From: Candidatus Gallimonas faecavium
Lineage (GTDB): Bacteria; Bacillota; Clostridia; Christensenellales; Borkfalkiaceae
Direction of reading: 5' to 3'
Assembly (NCBI GenBank): GCA_904391375.1
Contig: CAJFMF010000017.1
Span: 1-42,312, forward strand
Length of the DNA: 42,312 nucleotides
This document shows positions 10,084-38,959 of this stretch, piece by piece. A model generated the notes under the pieces. That model saw only the letters and a list, made by a program, of their open reading frames with translations, was not told the origin of the DNA and searched no databases. The first letter of the stretch is position 1, and each line of letters starts with the position of its first letter. The position numbers were made by a program, and so were the translations under genes.

Positions 10084-10169
10084 TGTAAAAATTTTTTTAC
10101 AAATGGCAAAAAAGATTTACAAGTTCATGACAAATTTGTGCGGGGATATTTACAACCGAGTGTTATCAT
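10084..10169 (+). promoter_or_regulatory. Pho-box-like repeats and -10 element upstream of pstS
   Basis: TTTACA occurs at 10096, 10116 and 10149, and ATGACA at 10127. The last three lie in an 11-base phase (11 and 22 bases apart). That is the spacing of PhoP boxes in Gram-positive bacteria (TTnACA, five-base spacers). An inverted TGTAAA occurs at 10084. A TATCAT (10164-10169) could be the -10 box; no -35 hexamer stands 17 bases before it, as expected of an activator-dependent promoter. A PhoB-type regulator is encoded 6.5 kb downstream. Confidence 0.6.
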
Positions 10170-10220: not shown

Positions 10221-11138
10221 ATGAAGAAGAAGATTTTTGCGATCGGGTTGGCAACTGCGATGACGGTTTCGGCCGTGGGGCTGATGGCAGGCTGCGGCGG
10301 ACGCGGAGCGGACGGAGCGGCGGACGGTTCGTCCGTTATGACAGCGGTTGCGCGTGAGCCTTCCTCCGGTACGCGTGAAGTTTTTGAGGAGAAGGTCGTA
10401 AAGGACGGCGTTTCGATTGCCGACTGGCTGGACGAGGGCAACACGATGCCCGGCGAGATCTCCGAGCAGAGCAGCACGGCTGCCGTGATTACGCAGGTTT
10501 CGCAGAGCTTTGACAGACTCGGCTATGTGTCGCTCGGTTCCTATATGGAGAACACAGACAAAGTTCAGGCGGTCACCGTTGACGGCGTCGAGGCGACCAA
10601 GGAGAACGTCCAGAGCGGAGAATACAGCATCTGGAGAAACTTCAATATCATCTATCAGCCGGGTGCGCTGGAGAGCAACGACCTGCTTGCGAACTTCGTG
10701 CTCTTCATGGAGAGCGAAGAGGGCCAGGAGATCATGATGAAGGATTACATCCAGCTTCCCGGTCTGGAAGTCAAGGAGTACACTCCTTACGCGGGGACCA
10801 CCAAGACGACGCTCAATTGCTCGGGTTCCACGTCGGTCGCGCCGCTTATGCGTGAGCTTGCCGCAGCATTCAGCAAGGCAAACGACGGAAAGGTCACCGT
10901 CAACGTGCAGGAAGGCGGCTCGGGCGTCGGGATCCAGCAGGCAACGGAGGGAACGGTCGACTTCGGCATGAGCTCCCGTGAACTGAAGGCGGAAGAGGAT
11001 GCGGCGGTCGATGCAATGCACATCTGCCTTGACGGCGTCGCCGTCATCGTCAAGAAGGGCAGCAAGTGCACCGCTGTCACGCTTGCCCAGCTGTTCGATC
11101 TTTACACCGCGCTCACGCCCATCGTGACAGAAGCGTAA
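10221..11138 (+). CDS. pstS: Circularly permuted PstS-type phosphate-binding lipoprotein
   Basis: A 305-residue lipoprotein: basic start, hydrophobic core and lipobox M-A-G-C with Cys25. It should capture phosphate outside the membrane for the downstream permease. All PstS landmarks are present but in swapped order. Residues 45-52 (R-E-P-S-S-G-T-R), the G-Y-V-S-L-G segment and the W-R-N-F-N-I block up to about 185 match the C-terminal half of ordinary PstS. Residues 202-290 (G-S-T-S-V-A-P-L-M, E-G-G-S-G-V-G, M-S-S-R-E-L, D-G-V-A-V-I-V) match the N-terminal half. The three phosphate-contact regions (GSTS, GGSG, SGT) are therefore all kept. ATG 10221 has AAGGAG upstream. It is the first gene of the pst block and probably Pho-regulated. 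I believe similarly ordered proteins exist in other Clostridia but could not check. Confidence 0.9.
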   Translation: MKKKIFAIGLATAMTVSAVGLMAGCGGRGADGAADGSSVMTAVAREPSSGTREVFEEKVVKDGVSIADWLDEGNTMPGEISEQSSTAAVITQVSQSFDRLGYVSLGSYMENTDKVQAVTVDGVEATKENVQSGEYSIWRNFNIIYQPGALESNDLLANFVLFMESEEGQEIMMKDYIQLPGLEVKEYTPYAGTTKTTLNCSGSTSVAPLMRELAAAFSKANDGKVTVNVQEGGSGVGIQQATEGTVDFGMSSRELKAEEDAAVDAMHICLDGVAVIVKKGSKCTAVTLAQLFDLYTALTPIVTEA

Positions 11139-11189: not shown

Positions 11190-11208
11190 TTCCGGTAGGT
11201 GGATTTTT

Positions 11209-13056
11209 ATGGAAAATACGGTTACTCAACGAAAACAGCGGGAACACATCCCTGCGGACAAGGTCAAAAACGGGATCGCCAAATATATCTTCATCGTCTG
11301 CGCCTGCATGTCTATCATTGCGGTCGTCGGGATCATCGGATATATTCTCTACGGCTCCATTCCCGCATTCCGCCAGGTCGGGTTCTTCAAATTCGTGTTC
11401 GGCACGACGTGGTACCCCGACGGGAAGAAGTTCGGGATCCTGCCCATGCTGGTCAATTCGCTCATTGTCACCGCGTTCTCGGTGGCGCTGGGCGGAACGA
11501 TCGGCGTCTTTACGGCGATTTTCCTCGTGTTCTGGTGTCCCGACAAGCTGCATTTGAAGTACAAGGGTCAAAACAAGTTTCTCGCAAAACTTGTCGCATG
11601 GCTGAACAAGCTCAACCTGCGCACCGTCTTTGATCAGGTCATCAAACTGCTCGCCGGCATCCCGTCCATCGTCTACGGTCTTGTCGGCCTGCAGCTGCTT
11701 GTCCCCATCCTTTCCTACCTCGATACGACGCCGCCCTATCAGGGAGAGGGCATCCTCGCTTCTTCCATTCTGCTTGCGATCATGGTCATCCCGACCATCA
11801 CCTCGCTCTCCAAGAATGCGCTCGAGGCCGTGCCGGAACAGTATTTTGAAGGCGCGCTCGCCATGGGCAATACCAAGGCGCAGGCGGTCTTTCGGGTCGT
11901 GGTCCCCGCGGCGCGTTCGGGGATCATCTCCGCGCTCATCCTCGGAACGGGCAGGGCGATCGGCGAGGCCATGGCGGTCATCTGGGTGTCCGGAAACCGC
12001 GCGCTCTTCCCGACGGGACTGTTCTCCAACATTCGGACGCTGACCGTCAACATCGTCATGGAGATGGGCTATGCGGAACTCACCCTGCACCGTCCCGCCC
12101 TTATCGCGACGGGCTTCGTCCTGCTCATCTTCGTCTTCATCATCACGCTGTCTTTGAATCTCGTCCCCAAGAACTTCAAGGGGAAGAGGGGAACGATGAC
12201 GCTGAACGGCGACAGCACGGCGGCGGTGACCTATGTAAAAAAGGGACTCCTTGCAGAGATATTAAAGGTCATTGCGATCGTCTGCGCGGTGCTCGTCCTT
12301 GCCATTCTCGCGGTCATCATCGTCTATCTCACGATCATGGGACTGAGCAACCTGACGGCAAGTTTCTTCGGCCCTTCGTCCGCCGACGTGCCGACGCTCT
12401 TCCCCGCGCTGGGGGCCACGCTCGAGCTCATCGCCATTACGCTCGTCATTGCGCTGCCGATCGGCATCGGCGCGGCGATCTTCCTCGTCGAGTATGCAAA
12501 GCCGGGCAGCAAGTTCGTCAAGATCGTCCGTACCTTCATCGATACGCTCGCAGGCGTGCCTTCCATCGTCTTCGGTCTGTTCGGCATGATCTTTTTCAGC
12601 GGGGTGCTCGGACTGAGCTATTCCGTCATGGCGGGTGCGCTGACCATGGTGCTTGTCGTCCTGCCGACCATCATCCGTTCGACGGAAGAGGCCCTCATCG
12701 CCGTTCCCGTCTCCTTCCGCGAGGCGAGCTACGGGCTGGGCGCCAGCAAGGTGCGCACCATCTTCAGGATCGTGCTTCCCTCGGCGTTCCCCGGCATTGC
12801 GACGGCGTCCATTCTTGCGATCGGCCGTATCATCGGCGAGTCGGCGGCGCTCATCTTCACGATGGGGGCCCTGTACACCTTTACGGGAAATCCGCTCGAC
12901 TCCTCCTGTTCGCTCGCCGTACTTCTCTACAGCTGTGCGAACGAAGGCTACCACATGAGTGAGGCATATGCGCTTGCGTTCATTCTCATCCTTCTCACCT
13001 TCGTGCTCAACCTCATCGTGTACTTTATCCAAAGACAAGTCAAGAAAAAGAGATAG
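11209..13056 (+). CDS. pstCA: Fused phosphate ABC permease PstC-PstA
   Basis: A 615-residue membrane protein joining both permease subunits. Residues 1-310 are PstC-like (G-I-L-P-M-L-V-N-S-L, L-A-G-I-P-S-I-V-Y-G, then G-T-G-R-A-I-G-E-A-M). Residues 345-615 are PstA-like (L-A-G-V-P-S-I-V-F-G, then A-I-G-R-I-I-G-E-S-A-A). Each half carries its own cytoplasmic EAA-type loop (A-L-A-M-G and A-S-Y-G-L-G-A) that contacts PstB. A Lys-rich linker around residues 322-343 joins them. The PstC half has an insert of about 40 basic residues between the second helix and the L-A-G-I-P-S motif. The ATG at 11209 is preceded by GTAGGTGG. Translation of both halves as one chain would fix 1:1 stoichiometry. Confidence 0.93.
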   Translation: MENTVTQRKQREHIPADKVKNGIAKYIFIVCACMSIIAVVGIIGYILYGSIPAFRQVGFFKFVFGTTWYPDGKKFGILPMLVNSLIVTAFSVALGGTIGVFTAIFLVFWCPDKLHLKYKGQNKFLAKLVAWLNKLNLRTVFDQVIKLLAGIPSIVYGLVGLQLLVPILSYLDTTPPYQGEGILASSILLAIMVIPTITSLSKNALEAVPEQYFEGALAMGNTKAQAVFRVVVPAARSGIISALILGTGRAIGEAMAVIWVSGNRALFPTGLFSNIRTLTVNIVMEMGYAELTLHRPALIATGFVLLIFVFIITLSLNLVPKNFKGKRGTMTLNGDSTAAVTYVKKGLLAEILKVIAIVCAVLVLAILAVIIVYLTIMGLSNLTASFFGPSSADVPTLFPALGATLELIAITLVIALPIGIGAAIFLVEYAKPGSKFVKIVRTFIDTLAGVPSIVFGLFGMIFFSGVLGLSYSVMAGALTMVLVVLPTIIRSTEEALIAVPVSFREASYGLGASKVRTIFRIVLPSAFPGIATASILAIGRIIGESAALIFTMGALYTFTGNPLDSSCSLAVLLYSCANEGYHMSEAYALAFILILLTFVLNLIVYFIQRQVKKKR

Positions 13057-14824: not shown

Positions 14825-14854
14825 CAAAAGTTTTTTCAAATTAGTGAAAATCAG

Positions 14855-14883
14855 GTGACAAAACGGCCGCTTCTCTGTATAAT
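14855..14883 (+). promoter_or_regulatory. Promoter of the Na/Pi cotransporter-phoB-phoR unit
   Basis: GTGACA (14855-14860) and TATAAT (14878-14883) are 17 bases apart. The near-consensus form suggests basal expression independent of the pstS promoter. Confidence 0.88.
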
Positions 14884-14926: not shown

Positions 14927-16600
14927 ATGGAATACTTATATCTCGTGCTCGAACTGTGCGGGGGGCTTGGCGCGTTCCTCATCGGCATGAACATGATGTC
15001 GGACAGCATGTCGCGCCTGGCGCACGGCAGGCTCAAGTCCATGCTCAACAAGACGGCAAACAACCGCATTGCGGGCGTCGGGATCGGCGCGGCCGTCACG
15101 ATGATCATTCAGAGCTCCTCTGCAACGACGGTCATGGTCGTCGGACTCGTCAATGCCGGGATTATGACCCTCTTCCAGGCGACCGCGGTCATCATGGGCG
15201 CCAACATCGGAACGACCATCACGGCGTGGATCGCCTCGCTCGGCAGTCTGGACGTCTCGGCATTCCTTCTGGTGCTCGCCGTCGTCGGCGTGTTCATGAC
15301 GATGTTCTCCAAGTCGGAGAAAGTCAAAGTCATCGGCAACGTACTTGCCGGTCTCGGTCTCATCTTTGTCGGCCTCGGCGTGATGTCCAATTCCATGGAT
15401 CCCGAACTTCACCCCGAAATCATGGACGTCATCCGCAACGCGCTGTCCGTCGTCAAAAATCCCTTCCTGCTGCTGCTCATCGGAATTGTCGCGACGGGGA
15501 TCGTCCAGTCCTCTTCGGCCGTCACGAGCATCGTCGTCGTTCTGGCCACGAGCAACGTGCTCATCGGCGGAACGGGGGACGGCGTCTATTACGTCATCAT
15601 CGGCTCCAACATCGGCACCTGCGTCACGGCAATACTCTCGTCCATCGGCGCCATGCCCAACGCCCGCCGCGCGGCCGTCATTCATCTGCTCTTCAACTGC
15701 ATGGGTGCGATTCTCTTCACGGTATTCCTCCTGTGCTGGCAGCCCTTCGGGACCTCTTTTTCCGAGACCGTTCTCGACAAAATCTTCCCTCCGATCGGCG
15801 GAAAGACCAACTATCAGTTCCAGATCGCATTTTTCCATACGCTGTTCAACGTCACCTGCACCTGCATTTTCCTGCCCTTTGCGAAGGGGTTCGTCAAACT
15901 TGCGAACCTGCTCGTGCGGGAGAAGAAAGAGGAGGCCGCGGCGGCGCCCGGCATTCTCGGAGATCTGGACGAGCGTCTCCTGCGCCAGCCTTCCGTCGCG
16001 CTCGGGCATCTCTATCAGGAGATCGGCAAGATGATCACCTACTCCATGGGAACGCTGACCGAGGCGTTCGAGGCCTTCCAGAAGAAGGACACCTCCGTCA
16101 AGGAGGACGTACAGGACCGCAACACGAAGCTCTCGGAGGCCAACCGTGCGGCGGTGGAATACCTGGTCAGGCTCTCGGCGTCCTCGCTCGTCATGGAGGA
16201 CGAAAAGACCATCTCCAATATGCACTATGTCCTCAATGACATCGTACGTATCGGGGAACTTGCGGACAACGTCACCAAATACACCGACCACTATCAGAAC
16301 GACAAACTCATCTTCTCCTCGGAATTTCTCAACATGACGCAGGAGATGTTCGACAAGATCAAGAAACTGTACACGGCGTCGCTCGCCGCCTTTTCCGAGC
16401 GGGATTTCTCGGAGCTCAAGGACGTGGACGCCATCGAGGACGAGATCGACAACTATCGGCGCGCGCTTGTCAATCGGCACATCAAGCGCCTCAACGAGGG
16501 GCTCTGTCAGCCGCAGAGCGCGAGCGTGTTCATCAATCTCGTGGGGAATCTGGAGCGTGCGGCCGACCATCTGACGTACATCGCGCACTCCATCGAATAA
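14927..16600 (+). CDS. Na/Pi cotransporter family protein with PhoU-like tail
   Basis: A 557-residue protein. The first 330 residues are a membrane domain with the two inverted Q-S-S-S motifs of the Na/Pi (PF02690, NptA/YjbB) family: Q-S-S-S-A-T-T (62-68) and Q-S-S-S-A-V-T-S (194-201). G-A-N-I-G-T and G-S-N-I-G-T follow them respectively. Residues about 375-557 are helical and PhoU-like, including a closing N-L-V-G-N-L-E-R-A-A-D-H. It probably moves phosphate with sodium, in or out, gated by its tail. The ATG at 14927 follows GGGAAGAGG. Upstream in-frame codons overlap the promoter and are rejected. It heads the transcript that continues into the two-component genes. Confidence 0.93.
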   Translation: MEYLYLVLELCGGLGAFLIGMNMMSDSMSRLAHGRLKSMLNKTANNRIAGVGIGAAVTMIIQSSSATTVMVVGLVNAGIMTLFQATAVIMGANIGTTITAWIASLGSLDVSAFLLVLAVVGVFMTMFSKSEKVKVIGNVLAGLGLIFVGLGVMSNSMDPELHPEIMDVIRNALSVVKNPFLLLLIGIVATGIVQSSSAVTSIVVVLATSNVLIGGTGDGVYYVIIGSNIGTCVTAILSSIGAMPNARRAAVIHLLFNCMGAILFTVFLLCWQPFGTSFSETVLDKIFPPIGGKTNYQFQIAFFHTLFNVTCTCIFLPFAKGFVKLANLLVREKKEEAAAAPGILGDLDERLLRQPSVALGHLYQEIGKMITYSMGTLTEAFEAFQKKDTSVKEDVQDRNTKLSEANRAAVEYLVRLSASSLVMEDEKTISNMHYVLNDIVRIGELADNVTKYTDHYQNDKLIFSSEFLNMTQEMFDKIKKLYTASLAAFSERDFSELKDVDAIEDEIDNYRRALVNRHIKRLNEGLCQPQSASVFINLVGNLERAADHLTYIAHSIE

Positions 16601-16616
16601 TTCGCGGATCCATATT

Positions 16617-17267
16617 ATGAACGAACAGGTCTATTTGTTGGAAGACGACGAGAGCATCTGCGACCTCGTCCAATGCACGCTGGACATGCACAGCATTTCC
16701 TGCCGTACGTTCACGACGATCAAGGCGTTTTCGGCGGCCGTCGAGGAGCATCTTCCCGACGTCGTGCTGCTCGACATCATGCTCGCGGACGGAAACGGAC
16801 TGGACGTCCTTGCCCGACTGAAGGCGCGGTTTCCCTCCGTGTGCGTCATCATGCTCTCGGCGCTCGGAAAGGAGACGGACAAGGTGAAGGGGCTCAACGC
16901 GGGGGCGGATGACTACATCGCCAAGCCGTTCGGCGTGCTGGAGCTCATCGCGCGCGTCAATGCGGCGCTGCGGCGCATTCACAAGACGAACCGCCTGCTC
17001 TGCGGAAGCCTCGTCATGGACACCGAAAACATGACGGTGACCTATCGCGGGCAGCCGCTCGATCTGAGCAACAAGGAATTTCAGCTCCTGCGCTATTTCA
17101 TCGTCAACGAGGGGAAGGTGCTCCCGCGCGAGACCATTCTCTCCGACGTATGGGGCTACGACGGCGGCGAAACACGCACGCTGGACAACCATGTGGCGCG
17201 CCTTCGGAAGCTGGGGCTCAACTTTGAAACGGTATTCGGCGTCGGATATAAATTCATTGCGGACTGA
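16617..17267 (+). CDS. phoB: OmpR/PhoB-type response regulator
   Basis: A 216-residue regulator. The receiver domain has D10-D11, the phosphorylation site D53 (L-L-D-I-M), a conserved switch Ser (L-S-A) and the K-P-F motif. The C-terminal winged helix includes L-S-N-K-E-F-Q-L-L-R-Y-F and the recognition segment T-L-D-N-H-V-A-R-L-R-K-L-G, ending in G-V-G-Y-K-F. The gene lies 16 bases after the Na/Pi cotransporter and directly before a sensor kinase. The neighbourhood makes a PhoB/PhoP role in phosphate starvation likely, with the repeats at 10084-10169 and 34305-34343 as candidate sites. Function as PhoB is inferred from context; the family is certain. Confidence 0.9.
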   Translation: MNEQVYLLEDDESICDLVQCTLDMHSISCRTFTTIKAFSAAVEEHLPDVVLLDIMLADGNGLDVLARLKARFPSVCVIMLSALGKETDKVKGLNAGADDYIAKPFGVLELIARVNAALRRIHKTNRLLCGSLVMDTENMTVTYRGQPLDLSNKEFQLLRYFIVNEGKVLPRETILSDVWGYDGGETRTLDNHVARLRKLGLNFETVFGVGYKFIAD

Positions 17268-17354: not shown

Positions 17355-18653
17355 GTGGCATATTCCCATCGCTATCTGCGCGCCTATATGGCGGCGTTCG
17401 ACGATACCCGTACCGAGGACCAGCTCGACGCGGCATACGCGAAGGAGCTCTCCGACGCATTGGGCGGGGCGCGCGTCACGTTCCTGACGGCGGAGGGGGA
17501 ATTTCTCGCCGACTCCGAGGATGAGGACGACGCCTCCCGCTCTCTGCGCCCCGAGGTGCAGGACGCCATCCGCAGCGGCGAAGGATTCAGCGCGCGCGTT
17601 TCCGAGACGCTGGGCGATACGTTCATGTACTACTGCAAGCGCTTTGACGGCTATCTCGTGCGCATCGCCGACCGCACGCAGTCCATGGGGAGCATCTACC
17701 TCGATTCTCTGCCCGCCGTCGGCATCTTTCTGCTCGCCGACGCCCTTGTCTGCCTGCTTTTGTCCTATCTCTCCACGGGCTATATCCTCAAACCGCTGGA
17801 ACAGCTCGCGCGCGACGCGGCGTGCAAAAAGCGCGTCGAGGCGCCCGTTCCCGAACTGCGCTCCTTCGCCAAGATCATCAACCGCATGAACGAGGACGCG
17901 GAGCAGCGCGTACAGGAGATCGCCGAAGAACACGGGCAGGTCGTCCGCGCACAGCAGTCCAAGGACGAATTTATCGCCAACGTCACGCACGAAATGAATA
18001 CACCGCTCACGTCCATCCGCGGATTTGCCGAGCTGCTTGCCGCGGGCGGGCTGGAGGGCGACCGCGCCGCCCGTGCCGCCAAGACCATTCTCACGCAGAG
18101 CGAGCGCCTGCAGAGCCTCGTCGCCTCGATCATCAATTACAGCGAGATCGACAGCGAAGACCTGCCCGTCTACGAAGTGGACGCCTCGCGCATCGCCCGC
18201 GACATCCTTGCCGCGCTCACGCCCGAATTCCGCGAAAAGAAGGTGGTGCTCCTCTCCGAGATCAAGGACGGTGTTCTGCTCATGAGCCGCCAGGAGCGCG
18301 TGACGGAGATCTTCGGGAACATCATCCGTAACGCCATCCGCTATAATCGCGAGGGCGGGAGCGTCTCCGTGCTCCTCACACAGGAGGAGTTCTCCGTTTC
18401 GGACACGGGCATCGGCATCTCGGAGGAAAATCTTCCGCGCATTTTCGACCGCTTCTTTACCATCGACAAATCCCACAACGGCAAGAACGGCGGGTTCGGG
18501 CTCGGCCTTTCCGTCGTCAAGAAACTCTGCAAAAAACAGGGCTGGACCCTCACCGTGGAGAGCAAAGAGGGCGTCGGAAGCACCTTCCGCATCGGCTTCC
18601 CCGCGGCGGAGCCGCCGCAGAATGCGGATCCCGCAAGCGCCGACCGCAAATGA
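17355..18653 (+). CDS. phoR: Sensor histidine kinase, PhoR-like; true 5' end unclear
   Basis: From the first canonical in-frame start (GTG 17355) it has 432 residues. An extracytoplasmic region (to about 115) is followed by a membrane helix, a linker, and the kinase core. The phospho-acceptor is H212 in V-T-H-E-M-N-T-P-L. The core continues with the N box I-I-R-N-A-I-R-Y-N, D-T-G-I-G-I and G-F-G-L-G-L-S. The first membrane helix is clearly encoded in the same frame upstream (F-A-S-F-A-I-A-L-I-V-F), starting only about 25 bases after the phoB stop, yet no ATG, GTG or TTG precedes it in frame. Either a rare start (ATC 17301 or ATT 17310) is used, or the 5' end is altered. It should phosphorylate the adjacent PhoB. 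Confidence 0.88.
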   Translation: MAYSHRYLRAYMAAFDDTRTEDQLDAAYAKELSDALGGARVTFLTAEGEFLADSEDEDDASRSLRPEVQDAIRSGEGFSARVSETLGDTFMYYCKRFDGYLVRIADRTQSMGSIYLDSLPAVGIFLLADALVCLLLSYLSTGYILKPLEQLARDAACKKRVEAPVPELRSFAKIINRMNEDAEQRVQEIAEEHGQVVRAQQSKDEFIANVTHEMNTPLTSIRGFAELLAAGGLEGDRAARAAKTILTQSERLQSLVASIINYSEIDSEDLPVYEVDASRIARDILAALTPEFREKKVVLLSEIKDGVLLMSRQERVTEIFGNIIRNAIRYNREGGSVSVLLTQEEFSVSDTGIGISEENLPRIFDRFFTIDKSHNGKNGGFGLGLSVVKKLCKKQGWTLTVESKEGVGSTFRIGFPAAEPPQNADPASADRK

Positions 18654-33993: not shown

Positions 33994-34085
33994 TCGGACA
34001 AATCCCCAAAAAAGGACGCAACCGCACGGCCGCCCCGAGTCTATGCGGGTATGGGAAATATCGAAAAGTTTCATCGTCATGCGTG

Positions 34086-34116
34086 CGGCGCCCGGGCAAA
34101 TTTTGCCCGGGTGCCG
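34086..34116 (+). terminator. Long hairpin after the ade operon
   Basis: A 15-bp stem with one G-U pair (34086-34100 with 34102-34116), effectively closed by an AAATTTT loop. No T tract follows. Possible mRNA end. Confidence 0.5.
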
Positions 34117-34146
34117 CTCTGTCTGCGGGCGCCGCTCTGTCTGCGG
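34113..34146 (+). repeat. 18-bp tandem duplication
   Basis: GCCGCTCTGTCTGCGG occurs at 34113-34128 and 34131-34146, period 18. Noncoding. Confidence 0.85.
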
Positions 34147-34202
34147 ACGTCGGGAAAAGGGGTTTGACCGATCGCATTTTTGAGCATACTTTCAAGTGCG
34201 GC

Positions 34203-34266
34203 AAGGCCGTATCGGCGAGGAGAAAGTAATTGCACAAAGGCCGTATCGGCGGGGAAAAAGCAATTT
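34203..34266 (+). repeat. 34-bp imperfect tandem duplication
   Basis: AAGGCCGTATCGGCG occurs at 34203 and 34237, each followed by a similar A-rich segment ending in AATT. Together with the previous repeat it fills the space before the Pho-box array. No gene is present in 33994-34454. Confidence 0.75.
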
Positions 34267-34304
34267 CATGGCGCAGAGGGAAGAAAAAAGCGGCGGGCGG
34301 AGGG

Positions 34305-34343
34305 TTGTAATGCAGATGTAACACAGTTGTAAAAAAAGTGTAA
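34305..34343 (+). promoter_or_regulatory. Four-copy 11-bp-spaced Pho-box-like array upstream of pfkA-ppx-ppk
   Basis: TTGTAA (34305), ATGTAA (34316), TTGTAA (34327) and GTGTAA (34338) are exactly 11 bases apart. Read on the minus strand they are TTACA hexamers with five-base spacers, the form of PhoP boxes in Bacillus-type Pho regulons. The same TTTACA core occurs before pstS. An OmpR/PhoB-family dimer array is the natural reading. The array ends 36 bases before the -35 box of the only clear promoter, so it could activate or repress; which is not visible. Confidence 0.7.
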
Positions 34344-34379
34344 AATCTTGGTAAGGGCGGCAAATTGCGGTGCCGCACC

Positions 34380-34408
34380 TTGACAATTTCCGAAAAAATG
34401 AGTAAAAT
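34380..34408 (+). promoter_or_regulatory. Promoter of pfkA-ppx-ppk
   Basis: TTGACA (34380-34385) and TAAAAT (34403-34408) with a 17-base spacer. A GCGGC/GCCGC hairpin lies just upstream (around 34353-34375). Confidence 0.87.
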
Positions 34409-34454
34409 GAAAAACGGGTAAAATGGTTTGGAAACATTTGGGAGGAAGAACGCA

Positions 34455-35528
34455 ATGAAATTCGGTATTCTGACGAGCGGAGGGGATTGTGCGGGGCTCA
34501 ATGCGGTCATCCGCTCCATCGGGCTTTTTCTTTTGCGCAATGTGAAGAATGCGGAGATCGTCGGCATTCCCGACGGATACGGCGGGCTCATCCGCGGGGA
34601 GAGCTTTCCGTTAAAGGAAGAGGACTTTGAGGACATTCTCGCGCTTGGCGGGACCATTCTGCGCACGTCGCGTCAGCCGTTCAAGAAGATGACCGTCTCG
34701 GAGGAGGGCGGTACAAAGCTCTCGAAAATGATCGCCAACTATAAGAAAATGGGTCTGGACTGCCTGTTCGCGCTGGGCGGTGCGGGAACGCACAAGACGG
34801 CGGCATTGCTCTCCATGGAGGGGTGCAATGTCATCGGCGTCCCCAAGACGATCGACAACGACATCTTCGGCACGGACGTCACCTTCGGATTCCGTACGGC
34901 GGTGGAAGTGGTGACGGACGCCTTTGACCGCATTTCGACCACGGCGGCCAGCCACAGCCGCATTATGCTGGTGGAGGTCATGGGAAACAAGGCGGGCTGG
35001 CTCACACTTCATTCGGGCATTGCCGCGGGTGCGTCCATGATCCTCATTCCCGAAATTCCCTTCAACCTCGATGCGGTGTGCGACGTGCTCTCCGCGCGGC
35101 TTGCGGCGGGAGAGCGTTCGACGATGGTCGCCGTCGCCGAGGGAGCTGTCCTCGACACCGAGGTGAAGTTCAAAAAAGAACAGCGCGCCTTTGTGCGCAT
35201 GGCCATGGGCGAGACGACGGTGACCCGTCATCTTGCCGAGGTGATCGGCGAGCGCACGGGTGCGGAGACGCGTTACAGCGTGCTCGGATATCTGCAACGC
35301 GGCGGCACGCCCTGTGCCTATGACAGATTGCTCTGCTCCCGTCTGGGCGGATATGCCGCACGGCTCGCGTCGGAGGGGAAGTTCGGCGTCACGGTGGCCG
35401 TCTCGGGCGGAGCGATCACGTTTAATGCACTCGCCGACATTGCGGGAAAATATAAATTCGTCGATCCGCAGGGGGACGATGTGCAGTTTGCGCGCAGCAT
35501 CGGCATTTCCTTCGGCGATCGTGCGTAA
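34455..35528 (+). CDS. pfkA: 6-phosphofructokinase, variant active-site clade
   Basis: A 357-residue kinase that makes fructose 1,6-bisphosphate. It has L-T-S-G-G-D-C-A-G-L-N-A at the start and the catalytic P-K-T-I-D-N-D (K131, D134), then M-G-x-K-A-G-W. The donor motif, usually G-G-D-G-T, is G108-G-A110-G-T, so the Asp that helps bind Mg-ATP is Ala. The Gly that marks ATP-dependent enzymes is kept, but the Lys before T-I-D-N-D is the residue typical of PPi enzymes. I recall a clostridial clade with G-G-(Q/N/A)-G-T-x-K-T that is treated as ATP-dependent; donor use here is open. The start follows GGAGGA. It precedes ppx and ppk with no clear terminator between. Confidence 0.92.
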   Translation: MKFGILTSGGDCAGLNAVIRSIGLFLLRNVKNAEIVGIPDGYGGLIRGESFPLKEEDFEDILALGGTILRTSRQPFKKMTVSEEGGTKLSKMIANYKKMGLDCLFALGGAGTHKTAALLSMEGCNVIGVPKTIDNDIFGTDVTFGFRTAVEVVTDAFDRISTTAASHSRIMLVEVMGNKAGWLTLHSGIAAGASMILIPEIPFNLDAVCDVLSARLAAGERSTMVAVAEGAVLDTEVKFKKEQRAFVRMAMGETTVTRHLAEVIGERTGAETRYSVLGYLQRGGTPCAYDRLLCSRLGGYAARLASEGKFGVTVAVSGGAITFNALADIAGKYKFVDPQGDDVQFARSIGISFGDRA

Positions 35529-35590: not shown

Positions 35591-36829
35591 ATGAAATATG
35601 CAGTCATCGACATCAGCTCCAGCAGTATCTCCATGATCGTCGCCGCCCGCGAGGGCGAAAAGACGGAAGTGGTGTTCAAGGAGCGCGCATCGCTTTCGCT
35701 CGTGCATTATCTGGAAGAGGAGGGCCTCTCCGCGCGCGGGAAGGAAAAACTCATCGAAATGCTCGTCCGTTTCAAGGAGACGGCGGCGGAGCTGGGCGTG
35801 GAGCGGTGCTACCTCATCGCCACGGCGGCGCTTCGTCATGTCAAGAATTTCGGCGAGATCGCCGCTTCTGTCTTTGAAGGGACGGGACTCACCGTCAACC
35901 TCATCGACGGCGCGACGGAGGCCTACTGCGACTATGTCGCCAACCTCTATTATAAGACGTGCGAACGTCCCGTCCTCATCGATCTCGGCGGCAAGAGCAT
36001 TGAGATCTGCGACCTCGCCAAGTCCGACAAGCAGGACATGATGTGCTTCTCCTTCGGACTTCTCGATCTGTATCGCAAGTTTGTCTCCAACATCTATCCC
36101 GACGAAAAGGAGGCGAAGGAGATCAAACGCTACGTCCGCGAGAAATTCGATCGCGCCGGCCTGCCCGGAGAGGGGGTATTCTCCACCGCGGTCATGGTGG
36201 GCGCGTCCAATGCGGCGATCTATGACATCTACGCCGAGTTTTCCGACGAGAGCGAGACCAACGGCGTCCGCACCATCCGCCGCAAGAAATTCAAGAAACT
36301 TGTCCGCCATCTTCTGACGGGAGAAGACCGCTCCCGCCTCGTGCTCAACAACGCGCCCGAAAAGCTCTATCTCATCGGCTCCGCCGCGATCGTCCTCAAA
36401 TACCTGTTCAAACGCTTCGGCGTCGAGCACATCGTCGTCAGCGAGCGCGGCGTCAAAGAGGGCTACTTGCAGCTCGTCCTCTCCGGCGAGGAGTCGGGGG
36501 CTTATTATGATTTCGTGCGCGGCAGTGCGGACGGAGAGGCGCGCAAGCTCCCGGAAAAAACCGCCGCCCGCAAGACGGAAAAGAGCGCAAAACGCGGCCG
36601 TCCCAAAAAGAAGGCGGAGGCAGTTCCCGTGCCCGCCGACGGAAAGAGCGCAAAACGCGGCCGTCCCAAAAAGAAGGCGGAAGCGGCTCCCGCGCCCGCC
36701 GACGGAAAGAGCGTAAAGCGCGGGCGTCCCAAAATGAAGGGGACGTCTGGGGCAAATACGGACACTGCCGCATCTTCCGACGTCGGGACCGTGCAAGAGA
36801 CGCCCGAATCGCAGACAAAAACCGAGTAA
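35591..36829 (+). CDS. ppx: Ppx/GppA-like exopolyphosphatase with AT-hook-like repeat tail
   Basis: A 412-residue protein. Residues 1-310 are an actin-fold Ppx/GppA domain: A-V-I-D-I-S-S-S-S-I-S (the phosphate-1 loop, usually G-S-N-S), G-A-T-E-A with the probable catalytic Glu, and D-L-G-G-K-S-I-E-I (usually G-G-G-S). It should remove phosphate from polyphosphate or pppGpp, though both loops vary. From residue 331 a 21-residue unit repeats three times, each with K-R-G-R-P-K (RGRP at 335, 356 and 377), the core of the AT-hook. The spacers are Ala/Pro-rich and likely disordered. The tail may bind AT-rich DNA, RNA or polyphosphate itself. ATAAGGAG precedes ATG. Next to ppk, it belongs to a polyphosphate operon. 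Confidence 0.88.
   Translation: MKYAVIDISSSSISMIVAAREGEKTEVVFKERASLSLVHYLEEEGLSARGKEKLIEMLVRFKETAAELGVERCYLIATAALRHVKNFGEIAASVFEGTGLTVNLIDGATEAYCDYVANLYYKTCERPVLIDLGGKSIEICDLAKSDKQDMMCFSFGLLDLYRKFVSNIYPDEKEAKEIKRYVREKFDRAGLPGEGVFSTAVMVGASNAAIYDIYAEFSDESETNGVRTIRRKKFKKLVRHLLTGEDRSRLVLNNAPEKLYLIGSAAIVLKYLFKRFGVEHIVVSERGVKEGYLQLVLSGEESGAYYDFVRGSADGEARKLPEKTAARKTEKSAKRGRPKKKAEAVPVPADGKSAKRGRPKKKAEAAPAPADGKSVKRGRPKMKGTSGANTDTAASSDVGTVQETPESQTKTE
36581..36769 (+). repeat. 63-bp in-frame tandem repeat coding the KRGRPKK tail
   Basis: Three units (36581, 36644, 36707) of 63 bases encode 21 residues each. Units one and two are almost identical in DNA, which suggests a recent duplication; unit three has diverged in its second half. 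Confidence 0.95.
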
Positions 36830-36874: not shown

Positions 36875-38959
36875 ATGATCAAAGAATTTACCGTTCCGCA
36901 AAAAGTCAAGAAGAAGTTCATCCGGGACATCTACGTCAACCGCGAGTTCAGCTGGCTGCTCTTCAACAAGCGCGTGCTGGATCAGTCGGTCGATCTGACC
37001 AATCCGCTCCTGGAGCGCTGCAAGTTTTTGTCCATCTTCACGTCCAACCTCGACGAGTTTTTCATGGTGCGCGTGGGGAGTCTGGTCAATGAAAATCTGA
37101 CCGAACCGACGGAGACGGAGAACAAGACGCAGCTCACGGCGGCCAAGCAGCTGGACGGCATTGCCGAAGTGGCGCGTCGGCTGTATGAGGCCCGCGCGGT
37201 CTGCTACAATGCCCTGCGCAAGGAGCTTTCGTCGAACGGCGTCAAGATCCTGCGCGCATCCGATCTGACGCCCCGCCAGACGGAGGAATGCAAGGAGATC
37301 TTCCTGCATCACGTCCTTCCGCTTCTGTCCATCATGGTGCTGGATGCCAAGCATCCGCTCATGCAGTTCGAGAACAAGCGTTCCTATGTCGTGTGCCAGC
37401 TGGAAAAGGACGGACGGCGCATGATCGGCGTCGTCGCGGTCAATCCCTCGCTCGATCGGCTGTACCGCCTGAGCGGAGACAAAAAGGTGCGCCTGATTCC
37501 GCTCGAAGAGCTGGTGCGGCTCTTTACGAAGTTTGCGTTCACGGGCTATACCGTGAGCGACCAGATGATGCTGCGCGTCACGCGCAACGCCGACTTCGAT
37601 ACCGCCATCGACGATACCGACCTCGAACGCGACTTCACCGAGATCATGAAGCAGCGCGTCGAATCGCGCGCCCGCATGGGCATCGTCCGCCTGGAAGTCG
37701 ATCGCGAGGAGAGCAAACTCCGCGATTTCGTGCTCAAGCTCTTAAAGCTCAATCCCAAGTTCTGCTTTACGGACGAGCGCTTCTTCGACTACAAATTCCT
37801 CTTCTCGGTCGGCAACTATCTTCCCCGCGACGTGGCGGCGAAGCTCAAATATCCGCCGTTTAAGGGTGCGATCCCCGCGGAGATCGCCGCGGCGCCCTCG
37901 CTCATCGACCTCATTTCGGCAAAGGACGTCTTTTTGTCCTATCCCTACGACAGCATGGACCCCGTCGTCGACCTTCTGGAAGAGTGCGCGAAAGACGAGC
38001 GCGTCAGCTCCATCATGATCACCATTTACCGCCTCGCGCACCATTCGCGCATTGCGGAACTGCTCTGCCGTGCCGCCGAAAACGGAAAACAGGTGACCGT
38101 CGTCATCGAGCTGTGCGCCCGCTTCGACGAGGAGAACAACCTCTATTTCGCCAACAAGCTGCAGGAGTCGGGCTGCACCATCATCTACGGCATGGAGAAC
38201 TACAAGGTGCACTCCAAGATCATCTCCATCGTCCTGAAGGACGGCGAGGAACTGCGTTATATCACGCACCTCGGCACGGGCAATTACAACGAATCCACCT
38301 CCCGCCAGTACACCGACCTCAACATCCTCACGGCGGATAAGGCGATCGGAGAGGACGCCGTCGCCTTCTTCCGCAATGTCGCCATCTGCAATACCGATTT
38401 TACCTATGAGCGCCTGCTCGTCGCGCCCAAGACGTTGAAGAGCGGCCTCATCCGCTATATTGACCGCGAAATCGAAAAGGCAAAGGCGGGCAAAGACGGA
38501 TACATCCTCGCCAAGATGAATTCTCTGACCGACAAGGAGATCATCGACAAGCTGGTCGCCGCCGGCGAAGCGGGGGTCAAGATCCGGCTCATCGTCCGCG
38601 GCATCTGCTGTCTGCTCCCCGGCGTCCCCGGAAAGACGGACAACATCCGCGTCATCAGCATCGTCGGACGCTTTTTGGAGCATTCGCGCGTCTATTCGTT
38701 CGGGGACGGCGAAGATCGGGTCATGTACATCTCCAGCGCCGACCTCATGACGCGCAATACCGACAAGCGCGTCGAGATCGCCACGCCCGTCCTCGACCGC
38801 CGCATCGCCGAGCGCATCGACGCGATCCTGCAGACCATGCTCTCCGACAACGTCAAGGCGCGCAAGCTGTGTGCGGACGGCGAGTATCGCAGCGTGGAGA
38901 TGCTGGGCGAGCCGCTCGACGCACAGGAGTCGTTCCTCGTGCAGGCGGCGGAACAATAA
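36875..38959 (+). CDS. ppk: Polyphosphate kinase 1
   Basis: A 694-residue enzyme of standard length that builds polyphosphate from ATP, reversibly. The N domain has N-R-E-F-S-W-L-x-F-N-x-R-V-L and F-L-S-I-F-T-S-N-L-D-E-F-F-M-V-R-V. The catalytic core has two phospholipase-D-like halves: Y-K-V-H-S-K with the phosphorylated His and H-L-G-T-G-N-Y-N-E-S-T, then R-G-I-C-C-L-L-P-G and F-L-E-H-S-R. The start is 45 bases after ppx and follows AGAGGG. Coupling to ppx allows joint control of polyphosphate synthesis and breakdown. Confidence 0.97.
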   Translation: MIKEFTVPQKVKKKFIRDIYVNREFSWLLFNKRVLDQSVDLTNPLLERCKFLSIFTSNLDEFFMVRVGSLVNENLTEPTETENKTQLTAAKQLDGIAEVARRLYEARAVCYNALRKELSSNGVKILRASDLTPRQTEECKEIFLHHVLPLLSIMVLDAKHPLMQFENKRSYVVCQLEKDGRRMIGVVAVNPSLDRLYRLSGDKKVRLIPLEELVRLFTKFAFTGYTVSDQMMLRVTRNADFDTAIDDTDLERDFTEIMKQRVESRARMGIVRLEVDREESKLRDFVLKLLKLNPKFCFTDERFFDYKFLFSVGNYLPRDVAAKLKYPPFKGAIPAEIAAAPSLIDLISAKDVFLSYPYDSMDPVVDLLEECAKDERVSSIMITIYRLAHHSRIAELLCRAAENGKQVTVVIELCARFDEENNLYFANKLQESGCTIIYGMENYKVHSKIISIVLKDGEELRYITHLGTGNYNESTSRQYTDLNILTADKAIGEDAVAFFRNVAICNTDFTYERLLVAPKTLKSGLIRYIDREIEKAKAGKDGYILAKMNSLTDKEIIDKLVAAGEAGVKIRLIVRGICCLLPGVPGKTDNIRVISIVGRFLEHSRVYSFGDGEDRVMYISSADLMTRNTDKRVEIATPVLDRRIAERIDAILQTMLSDNVKARKLCADGEYRSVEMLGEPLDAQESFLVQAAEQ

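Follow-up and report, generated by a model that had tools for sequence, protein, structure and literature searches.

The Gram-positive PhoP box consists of TTWACA-N5 repeats, and Pho boxes at activated promoters usually overlap or replace the -35 element. In class I activation by CRP, sites lie upstream of the promoter core by roughly whole helical turns. Plants under short phosphate induce a pyrophosphate-using glycolytic bypass. The Pho box of Escherichia coli PhoB is described in section 4 of PMC4415409 as CTGTCAT in two or more 11-base direct repeats, and the consensus TGTWAH-N5-TGTWAH appears in PMC4168254 for WalR/YycF. For phosphofructokinases of the PFK-A family, section 6 of PMC11609450 and section 12 of PMC10339645 give donor signatures of G104 with G108 for ATP, G104 with I108 for ADP, and D104 for pyrophosphate.

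Here, a stretch of 42,312 nucleotides from Candidatus Gallimonas faecavium (the window) was analyzed, in which a tandem array of TGTAA units precedes a pfkA-ppx-ppk operon. This array is probably a Pho-box operator of the operon, read by PhoB. Pho operators are well known, and phosphofructokinase would be a new target and the upstream layout an unusual one; in the open-access literature no paper joining "PhoP box" with phosphofructokinase was found and, among the matches listed, there was no Pho-controlled pfkA-ppx-ppk operon.

The array before pfkA-ppx-ppk

The four-unit operator TGTAAT-N5-TGTAAC-N5-TGTAAA-N5-TGTAAA occupies 34306..34344 on the forward strand, on which also lie the promoter elements and genes of this operon, the pstS and nptA operators, and nptA, phoB, and phoR. 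Its units start at 34306, 34317, 34328, and 34339, so that the TGTAA cores (34306-34310, 34317-34321, 34328-34332, and 34339-34343) follow one another at exact 11-base steps. A previous sequence-only reading had reported this step correctly, but with each unit start one base too low; its distance of 36 bases between the array and the -35 element holds, with TTGACA at 34380..34385. All four hexamers match TGTWAH with 5-base spacers, and a weak fifth unit with one mismatch, GGTAA (34350..34354), stands in the same register. The -10 element, TAAAAT, lies 17 bp after the -35 element (34403..34408) and is followed by pfkA (34455..35528), which encodes a PFK-A family phosphofructokinase with the motifs GGAGTHKT and PKTIDND, by ppx (35591..36829), which encodes an exopolyphosphatase of the Ppx-GppA family with KRGRPKK repeats in its C-terminal tail, and by ppk (36875..38959), which encodes polyphosphate kinase 1. 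The three genes would be carried on one transcript. A divergent target gene was rejected, as the best upstream open reading frame lies on the pfkA strand both in the window, where it is a phosphodiesterase gene, and at ten of ten named loci compared. As a separate observation, the Ppx C-terminus carries two or three of the AT-hook-like KRGRPKK repeats, such repeats being present in eight of eight tails compared (including its own); one might guess that this tail binds DNA or polyphosphate.

No in-phase TGTAA run longer than 1 arose when the window was dinucleotide-shuffled 200 times, and in 5000 shuffles of the intergenic region 33994-34454 a run of 2 arose in two shuffles and was never exceeded. 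Across the source genome (G000; 1.64 Mb, 120 contigs, 88% complete), the mismatch-free three-unit pattern occurs only at this array, as two overlapping matches, and the pattern read backwards gives none. A chance origin of the array was rejected on the basis of the shuffle runs and of this uniqueness.

The comparison set comprised 103 genomes of the genus; the close named relatives are gut Clostridia MAGs, one of them Candidatus Gallimonas merdae from chicken. Searches with Ppx found a close pfkA-ppx-ppk operon in 21 genomes, the source genome included (ppx 55-90% besides the query), and a diverged one in six (ppx 39-40%); G040 is counted among the operon genomes though its contig ends before ppk. 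The sequence-only reading had named loss of the repeats in close relatives as evidence against it, and this test has now been run: at least two in-phase units at step 11 are kept in 21/21 close promoters (four units in 11, three in 3, and two in 7), compared with 0/21 at the wrong steps 8, 9, 12, and 13 and 1/21 at each of steps 10 and 14. Across relatives, both TGTAAN and TGTCAY occur as units. On the coding strand, 17 of the 21 promoters read TGTAAN, three read TTTACA/ATTACA (G013, G017, and G103, with two units each), and one, G022, has two TGTTACA units, which read both ways. Among seven of the eight own-clade genomes, pairwise identity is 0.71, 0.94, 1.0, and 1.0 over the four units, against 0.30 over the 30 bases upstream and 0.43 over the 25 bases downstream; G004, in which the last step is 10 bases, was left out of the flank figure.

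Beyond the close set, at least two units are found in 1/6 diverged operons and 3/18 further ppk/ppx-linked loci (L156, L161, and L162), the array being absent from the other 5/6 and 15/18, and in 0/51 unlinked pfkA loci; the controls there gave 1/18 linked loci at step 13 and, among unlinked loci, 1/51 at step 10 and 2/51 at step 14. The array is therefore not general outside the 21 close promoters. Within them, by this pattern of conservation, it is a real, conserved operator.

The same motif at phosphate genes

The window also contains a cluster in the order pstS-pstCA-pstB-phoU-nptA-phoB-phoR. The sequence-only reading had mentioned related TTTACA repeats at pstS, and these are real: TTTACA at 10116 and 10149 share one 11-base register with ATGACA at 10127 and a degenerate GTGCGG at 10138 (operator at 10116..10154), and the last TTTACA unit stands 9 bp before TATCAT. 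A second operator, TTTCAAATTAGTGAAAATCAGGTGACA (14834..14860), precedes nptA-phoB-phoR, with its last unit in the -35 place, 17 bp before TATAAT; nptA (14927..16600, the ATG at 14927 being the chosen start) encodes a Na/Pi cotransporter with a PhoU domain. Two features of the cluster may be recorded in passing. The pstS product (10221-11138) has a circularly permuted look, residues 52-186 matching the end of the PstS model and residues 210-273 its start, an order also seen in G081 (L273) and G038 (L272), with the ordinary order in G095 (L279); and PstC and PstA are apparently fused in one 618-residue permease frame (11200-13056).

A matrix was built from pfkA arrays alone, namely 11 of 12 four-unit arrays (G004, with its 10-base last step, was unused), and scanned over 27 pst-pho regions, nptA regions with fewer than 150 bases upstream being dropped. 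The best three-unit match lay before nptA-phoB-phoR in 22/27 regions at step 11, compared with 8, 11, 10, 8, 11, and 5 of 27 at the wrong steps 8, 9, 10, 12, 13, and 14, so that base composition explains part of the result, not most of it; the mean top score was 19.9 at step 11, and at none of the wrong steps did it exceed 11.2. Three of the five regions missed have their top match 4.4-4.7 kb upstream, and in two of these (L264 and L268) it is the pstS promoter. Before pstS, two-unit scores of at least 14 bits were obtained in 12/17 cases at step 11, 1/17 at step 8, and 0/17 at the other steps. The complementary tests separate little: the three-unit score at pstS does not distinguish step 11 from step 10 (means of 3.50 at step 11 and 3.47 at step 10), and the two-unit test at nptA gave 8/28 at step 11 against 7/28 at step 10.

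Similar arrays in relatives stand before a PHO4-family Pi permease with a DUF47 protein (G038), a GDSL-like/ABC-transporter/GDPD cluster (G029), a secreted metallophosphoesterase (G015), lipoproteins beside pgk (G013 and G091), and a secreted-protein open reading frame (G081). A one-mismatch pattern search of 61 genomes gave 70 sites, against 32 in the backwards control, so that about half of the single sites are noise and any one of them may be due to chance; the weak lone sites include those before a tRNA methyltransferase-like gene (L105) and an ABC gene (L104), together with several to which no gene was assigned. Two-mismatch sites in the source genome fall on contigs C11, C13, and C42, and only C42, where an ABC exporter gene follows at a distance of about 110-160 bases, keeps three TGTAA units in register (860-905, L097), one of the steps being in reverse orientation (TTACA). 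Denser arrays of the TGTTACATG/TGTAAAG type were also observed at L090 and L091 (G092), before small lipoprotein genes, and at L110 (G086), where they are palindromic; these genomes lack PhoB, and the motif system is apparently a different one.

Taken together, the pfkA array has four direct 11-base repeats in the window, where a Pho box has at least two; its TGTAAN/TGTCAY units resemble CTGTCAT and TTWACA; and its motif is shared with the pst/pho genes of the same organisms (22/27 for nptA-phoB and 12/17 for pstS). Overlap with, or replacement of, the -35 element is seen at pstS and nptA and not at pfkA, where an intact TTGACA lies 36 bases downstream. Since such overlap is usual, not universal, membership of the pfkA array among Pho boxes is claimed only as probable. 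The Pho-box-like nature first proposed for the repeats is thus borne out by the comparison, through conservation in 21/21 promoters and the motif shared with pst and nptA-phoB.

Probable regulator and proposed mode of action

The proposed binder is the OmpR/PhoB-type response regulator encoded by phoB (16617..17267), which adjoins pst, phoU, nptA, and a sensor kinase gene, phoR (17355..18653). The best NCBIfam model for the regulator is PhoB, at 171.6 bits against an equivalog cut-off of 296.2, and the best models for the kinase are PnpS and PhoR, both below their cut-offs; the case for PhoB therefore rests on gene context and shared operators. A search with PF00486 found three OmpR-type regulators in the source genome, namely PhoB in the window, a second one (RR2) on contig C5, and a split one on C92/C102; comparison of their DNA-contact residues by eye gave no discrimination. 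PhoB (E <= 1e-70) is present in 34/103 genomes of the genus, among them 20/21 with the close operon and 6/6 with the diverged one; at the same threshold it was not found in G011, an array genome that is 74% complete. The operon occurs in 26/34 PhoB genomes versus 1/69 others (Fisher p 2.6e-16, kinship ignored). The earlier suggestion that the product of the gene at 16617 binds the array stands to the extent that PhoB, by shared motif and co-occurrence, is the best candidate; that it binds the array, and does so in a phosphate-dependent manner, is what we infer from these patterns. RR2 (C5 45480-46151, L093) was found (E <= 1e-40) in 21/103 genomes; a similar 11-base array precedes its own gene in eight genomes, several of which have another array at a distance of 3-5 kb, and autoregulation of RR2 through the array at its own gene is likely.

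Spacing was counted between the first bases of the last unit and of the -35 element. Seven own-clade genomes have 41-42, G104 has 31, and G101, G100, G018, G091, G011, G083, and G028 have 21-22; the three-unit run of G004 gives 51, one more unit standing ten bases closer at 41, and the two units of G081 give 43, another unit being in register at 21. For the reversed arrays the spacing is 35, and for G022 it is 37. The forward spacings thus correspond to about two, three, and four helical turns. Because 31 and 41-42 look like separate changes on the PFK tree, about two independent shifts would have kept the helical face, which as a sign of function is suggestive, not strong. At pstS and nptA the coding-strand reading of the arrays is TTNACA, the last unit stands in or near the -35 place, and the orientation is opposite to that of the pfkA array.

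Several other readings of the array deserve weighing. That RR2, and not PhoB, reads the operator might be suggested by the arrays at the RR2 promoters of those eight genomes, such as TGCAAA-N5-TGTTAA-N5-TGTAAA, which lie 60-125 bases before the gene and occur in some genomes without PhoB. However, RR2 is missing from 9/21 array genomes (G029, G102, G101, G011, G081, G083, G028, G013, and G017; completeness 70-95%), including G102 with its full four-unit array, and was rejected as sole binder for this reason; moreover, six genomes with RR2 and without PhoB (G094, G019, G023, G110, G030, and G121) have no operon, and RR2 sites favor TGTTAA/TGCWAA over TGTCAY/TGTAAC, which leaves this reading very improbable. 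A WalR-type operator read by the third regulator, which would tie the operon to envelope state, is very improbable: all four units do match the consensus printed in PMC4168254 exactly, and the kinase on C102 is the genome's best WalK match (168 bits), but no protein of this 88%-complete genome passes the YycF or WalK cut-offs, only partial relatives being present, so that WalR proper was rejected. In addition, regulators of the third type (40-44% to the query) occur in most genomes of the genus with or without the operon, whereas the arrays go with phosphate genes. The runs of A that end the units, one helical turn apart, would lead one to think of phased A/T-rich blocks acting through DNA bending or as an upstream promoter element, with no specific protein. 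In relatives, however, TGTCAC/TGTCAT replace TGTAAN at the same register, so that base identity is kept and not just A-tracts; bending alone was rejected on this ground, and the same motif before phosphate genes also argues against it, making this account very improbable. Finally, the source genome is a fragmented MAG, but the shuffles and the in-phase units in 20 other genomes already refute chance or an assembly artefact, the probability of which is negligible.

The main rival concerns the sign of regulation and not the binder. PhoB might bind and repress, its site beside the upstream element blocking a strong constitutive promoter at short phosphate; the near-consensus core (TTGACA, 17 bp, TAAAAT) and the reversal of the pfkA array relative to those of pstS and nptA would suit such a role, and in Amycolatopsis balhimycina, according to PMC3004843, ppk is downregulated at low phosphate. 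Nevertheless, a site clear of the -35 element, with spacing that varies by about whole turns, suits contact with polymerase better than plain blocking, and section 4 of the review PMC4415409 states that most bacteria induce ppk for storage, so that repression is rather unlikely. Whole-turn spacing upstream of an intact -35 element points instead to activation from upstream, which, given binding, is the rather likely effect of PhoB.

In the preferred reading, low phosphate would lead the sensor kinase encoded beside phoB to phosphorylate PhoB (16617), which would bind as head-to-tail protomers, one on each 11-base unit and all on one helix face, upstream of the intact -35/-10 elements. Bound PhoB would most likely help RNA polymerase from upstream, thereby bringing polyphosphate synthesis by Ppk, its breakdown by Ppx, and an atypical phosphofructokinase of accessory role into the Pho regulon. 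If this is right, one operator links both polyphosphate turnover and a sugar-phosphate kinase to the sensing of phosphate in an uncultured lineage of gut Clostridia, and the helical-turn spacing across species offers a handle on how a tandem PhoB array acts upstream of an intact -35 element.

The linked phosphofructokinase and comparison with known systems

The idea that phosphate state would set glycolytic entry through this operon is not supported. The genome has a second, canonical phosphofructokinase on contig C48, with the motifs GGDGSFRGA and PGTIDND, and the phosphofructokinase of the window is atypical and linked to ppk/ppx; the regulated unit is therefore more aptly described as a polyphosphate module that includes an accessory phosphofructokinase. 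At all 56 loci with the GGAGT motif (34455-35528 in the window and L145-L224), ppk and/or ppx lies in the fetched stretch, these loci representing 45 distinct genomes, as 11 named loci (L145-L154 and L159) duplicate genomes of the G-numbered set. Near pfkA genes of the GGNGT type, ppk/ppx was found at 0/51 loci within at most 5 kb on either side, the stretch being shorter at some loci. In a tree of 63 rows, for which 17 of the 51 unlinked loci were sampled, the linked enzymes, Spirochaetota MAGs included, group as a single clade (support 100/100), and the association thus reflects one stable inheritance and not many events.

This clade keeps the catalytic TIDND and has at its donor site A103, the pyrophosphate-like K124, and T108, which a few members replace by S or N. 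G104 is present at all 56 loci, and position 108 is T in 49, S in 6, and N in 1. The enzymes accordingly lack the G108 of the ATP signature and the isoleucine 108 of the ADP signature, and, although they have K124, their G104 (56/56) departs from the D104 of the pyrophosphate signature. A tentative and on balance unlikely proposal is that the phosphofructokinase of the window takes phosphate from polyphosphate, or from another non-ATP donor, supplied by the neighboring Ppk, with the array controlling the module; polyphosphate as the donor is a guess from the neighboring genes. Were it true, phosphate starvation would switch on an ATP-sparing phosphofructokinase, and the ppk/ppx-linked A103/G104/T108/K124 clade of Clostridia and Spirochaetota MAGs would constitute a new PFK-A donor class.

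Compared with the PFK-A families that carry the ATP, ADP, and pyrophosphate signatures, the window enzyme shares the fold family, the TIDND motif, and G104, whereas the combination of A103, T108, and K124 matches none of these signatures. An ATP-sparing phosphofructokinase, if that proposal were true, would be a bacterial parallel to the pyrophosphate-using bypass of plants.

As for the operator, the pfkA array shares with the WalR/YycF site an exact match of all four units and differs from it in that the neighbors and co-occurrence of the array are phosphate genes and in that no WalR/WalK lies over the cut-off. It resembles CRP class I geometry in standing at about whole turns upstream of the core; the regulator and the tandem arrangement are different, and the promoter core here is a predicted one. 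With the Gram-positive PhoP box it has in common an 11-base period and units, TGTWAA, that are the reverse complement of TTWACA; the TTWACA reading of the PhoP box itself is found at pstS, at nptA, and at one outside locus, L161 (TTAACA, TTAACA, and TTTACA before pfkA), unlike the pfkA units, which are mostly TGTAAN on the coding strand (17/21). Relative to the Pho box of E. coli, the pfkA array, a putative PhoB site, differs in having four perfect units 36 bases upstream of an intact -35 element. It has the same head-to-tail units of 11 bases with a TGTCA/TGTAA core, and, as in the E. coli Pho system, a PhoB-type regulator is encoded with the pst genes.
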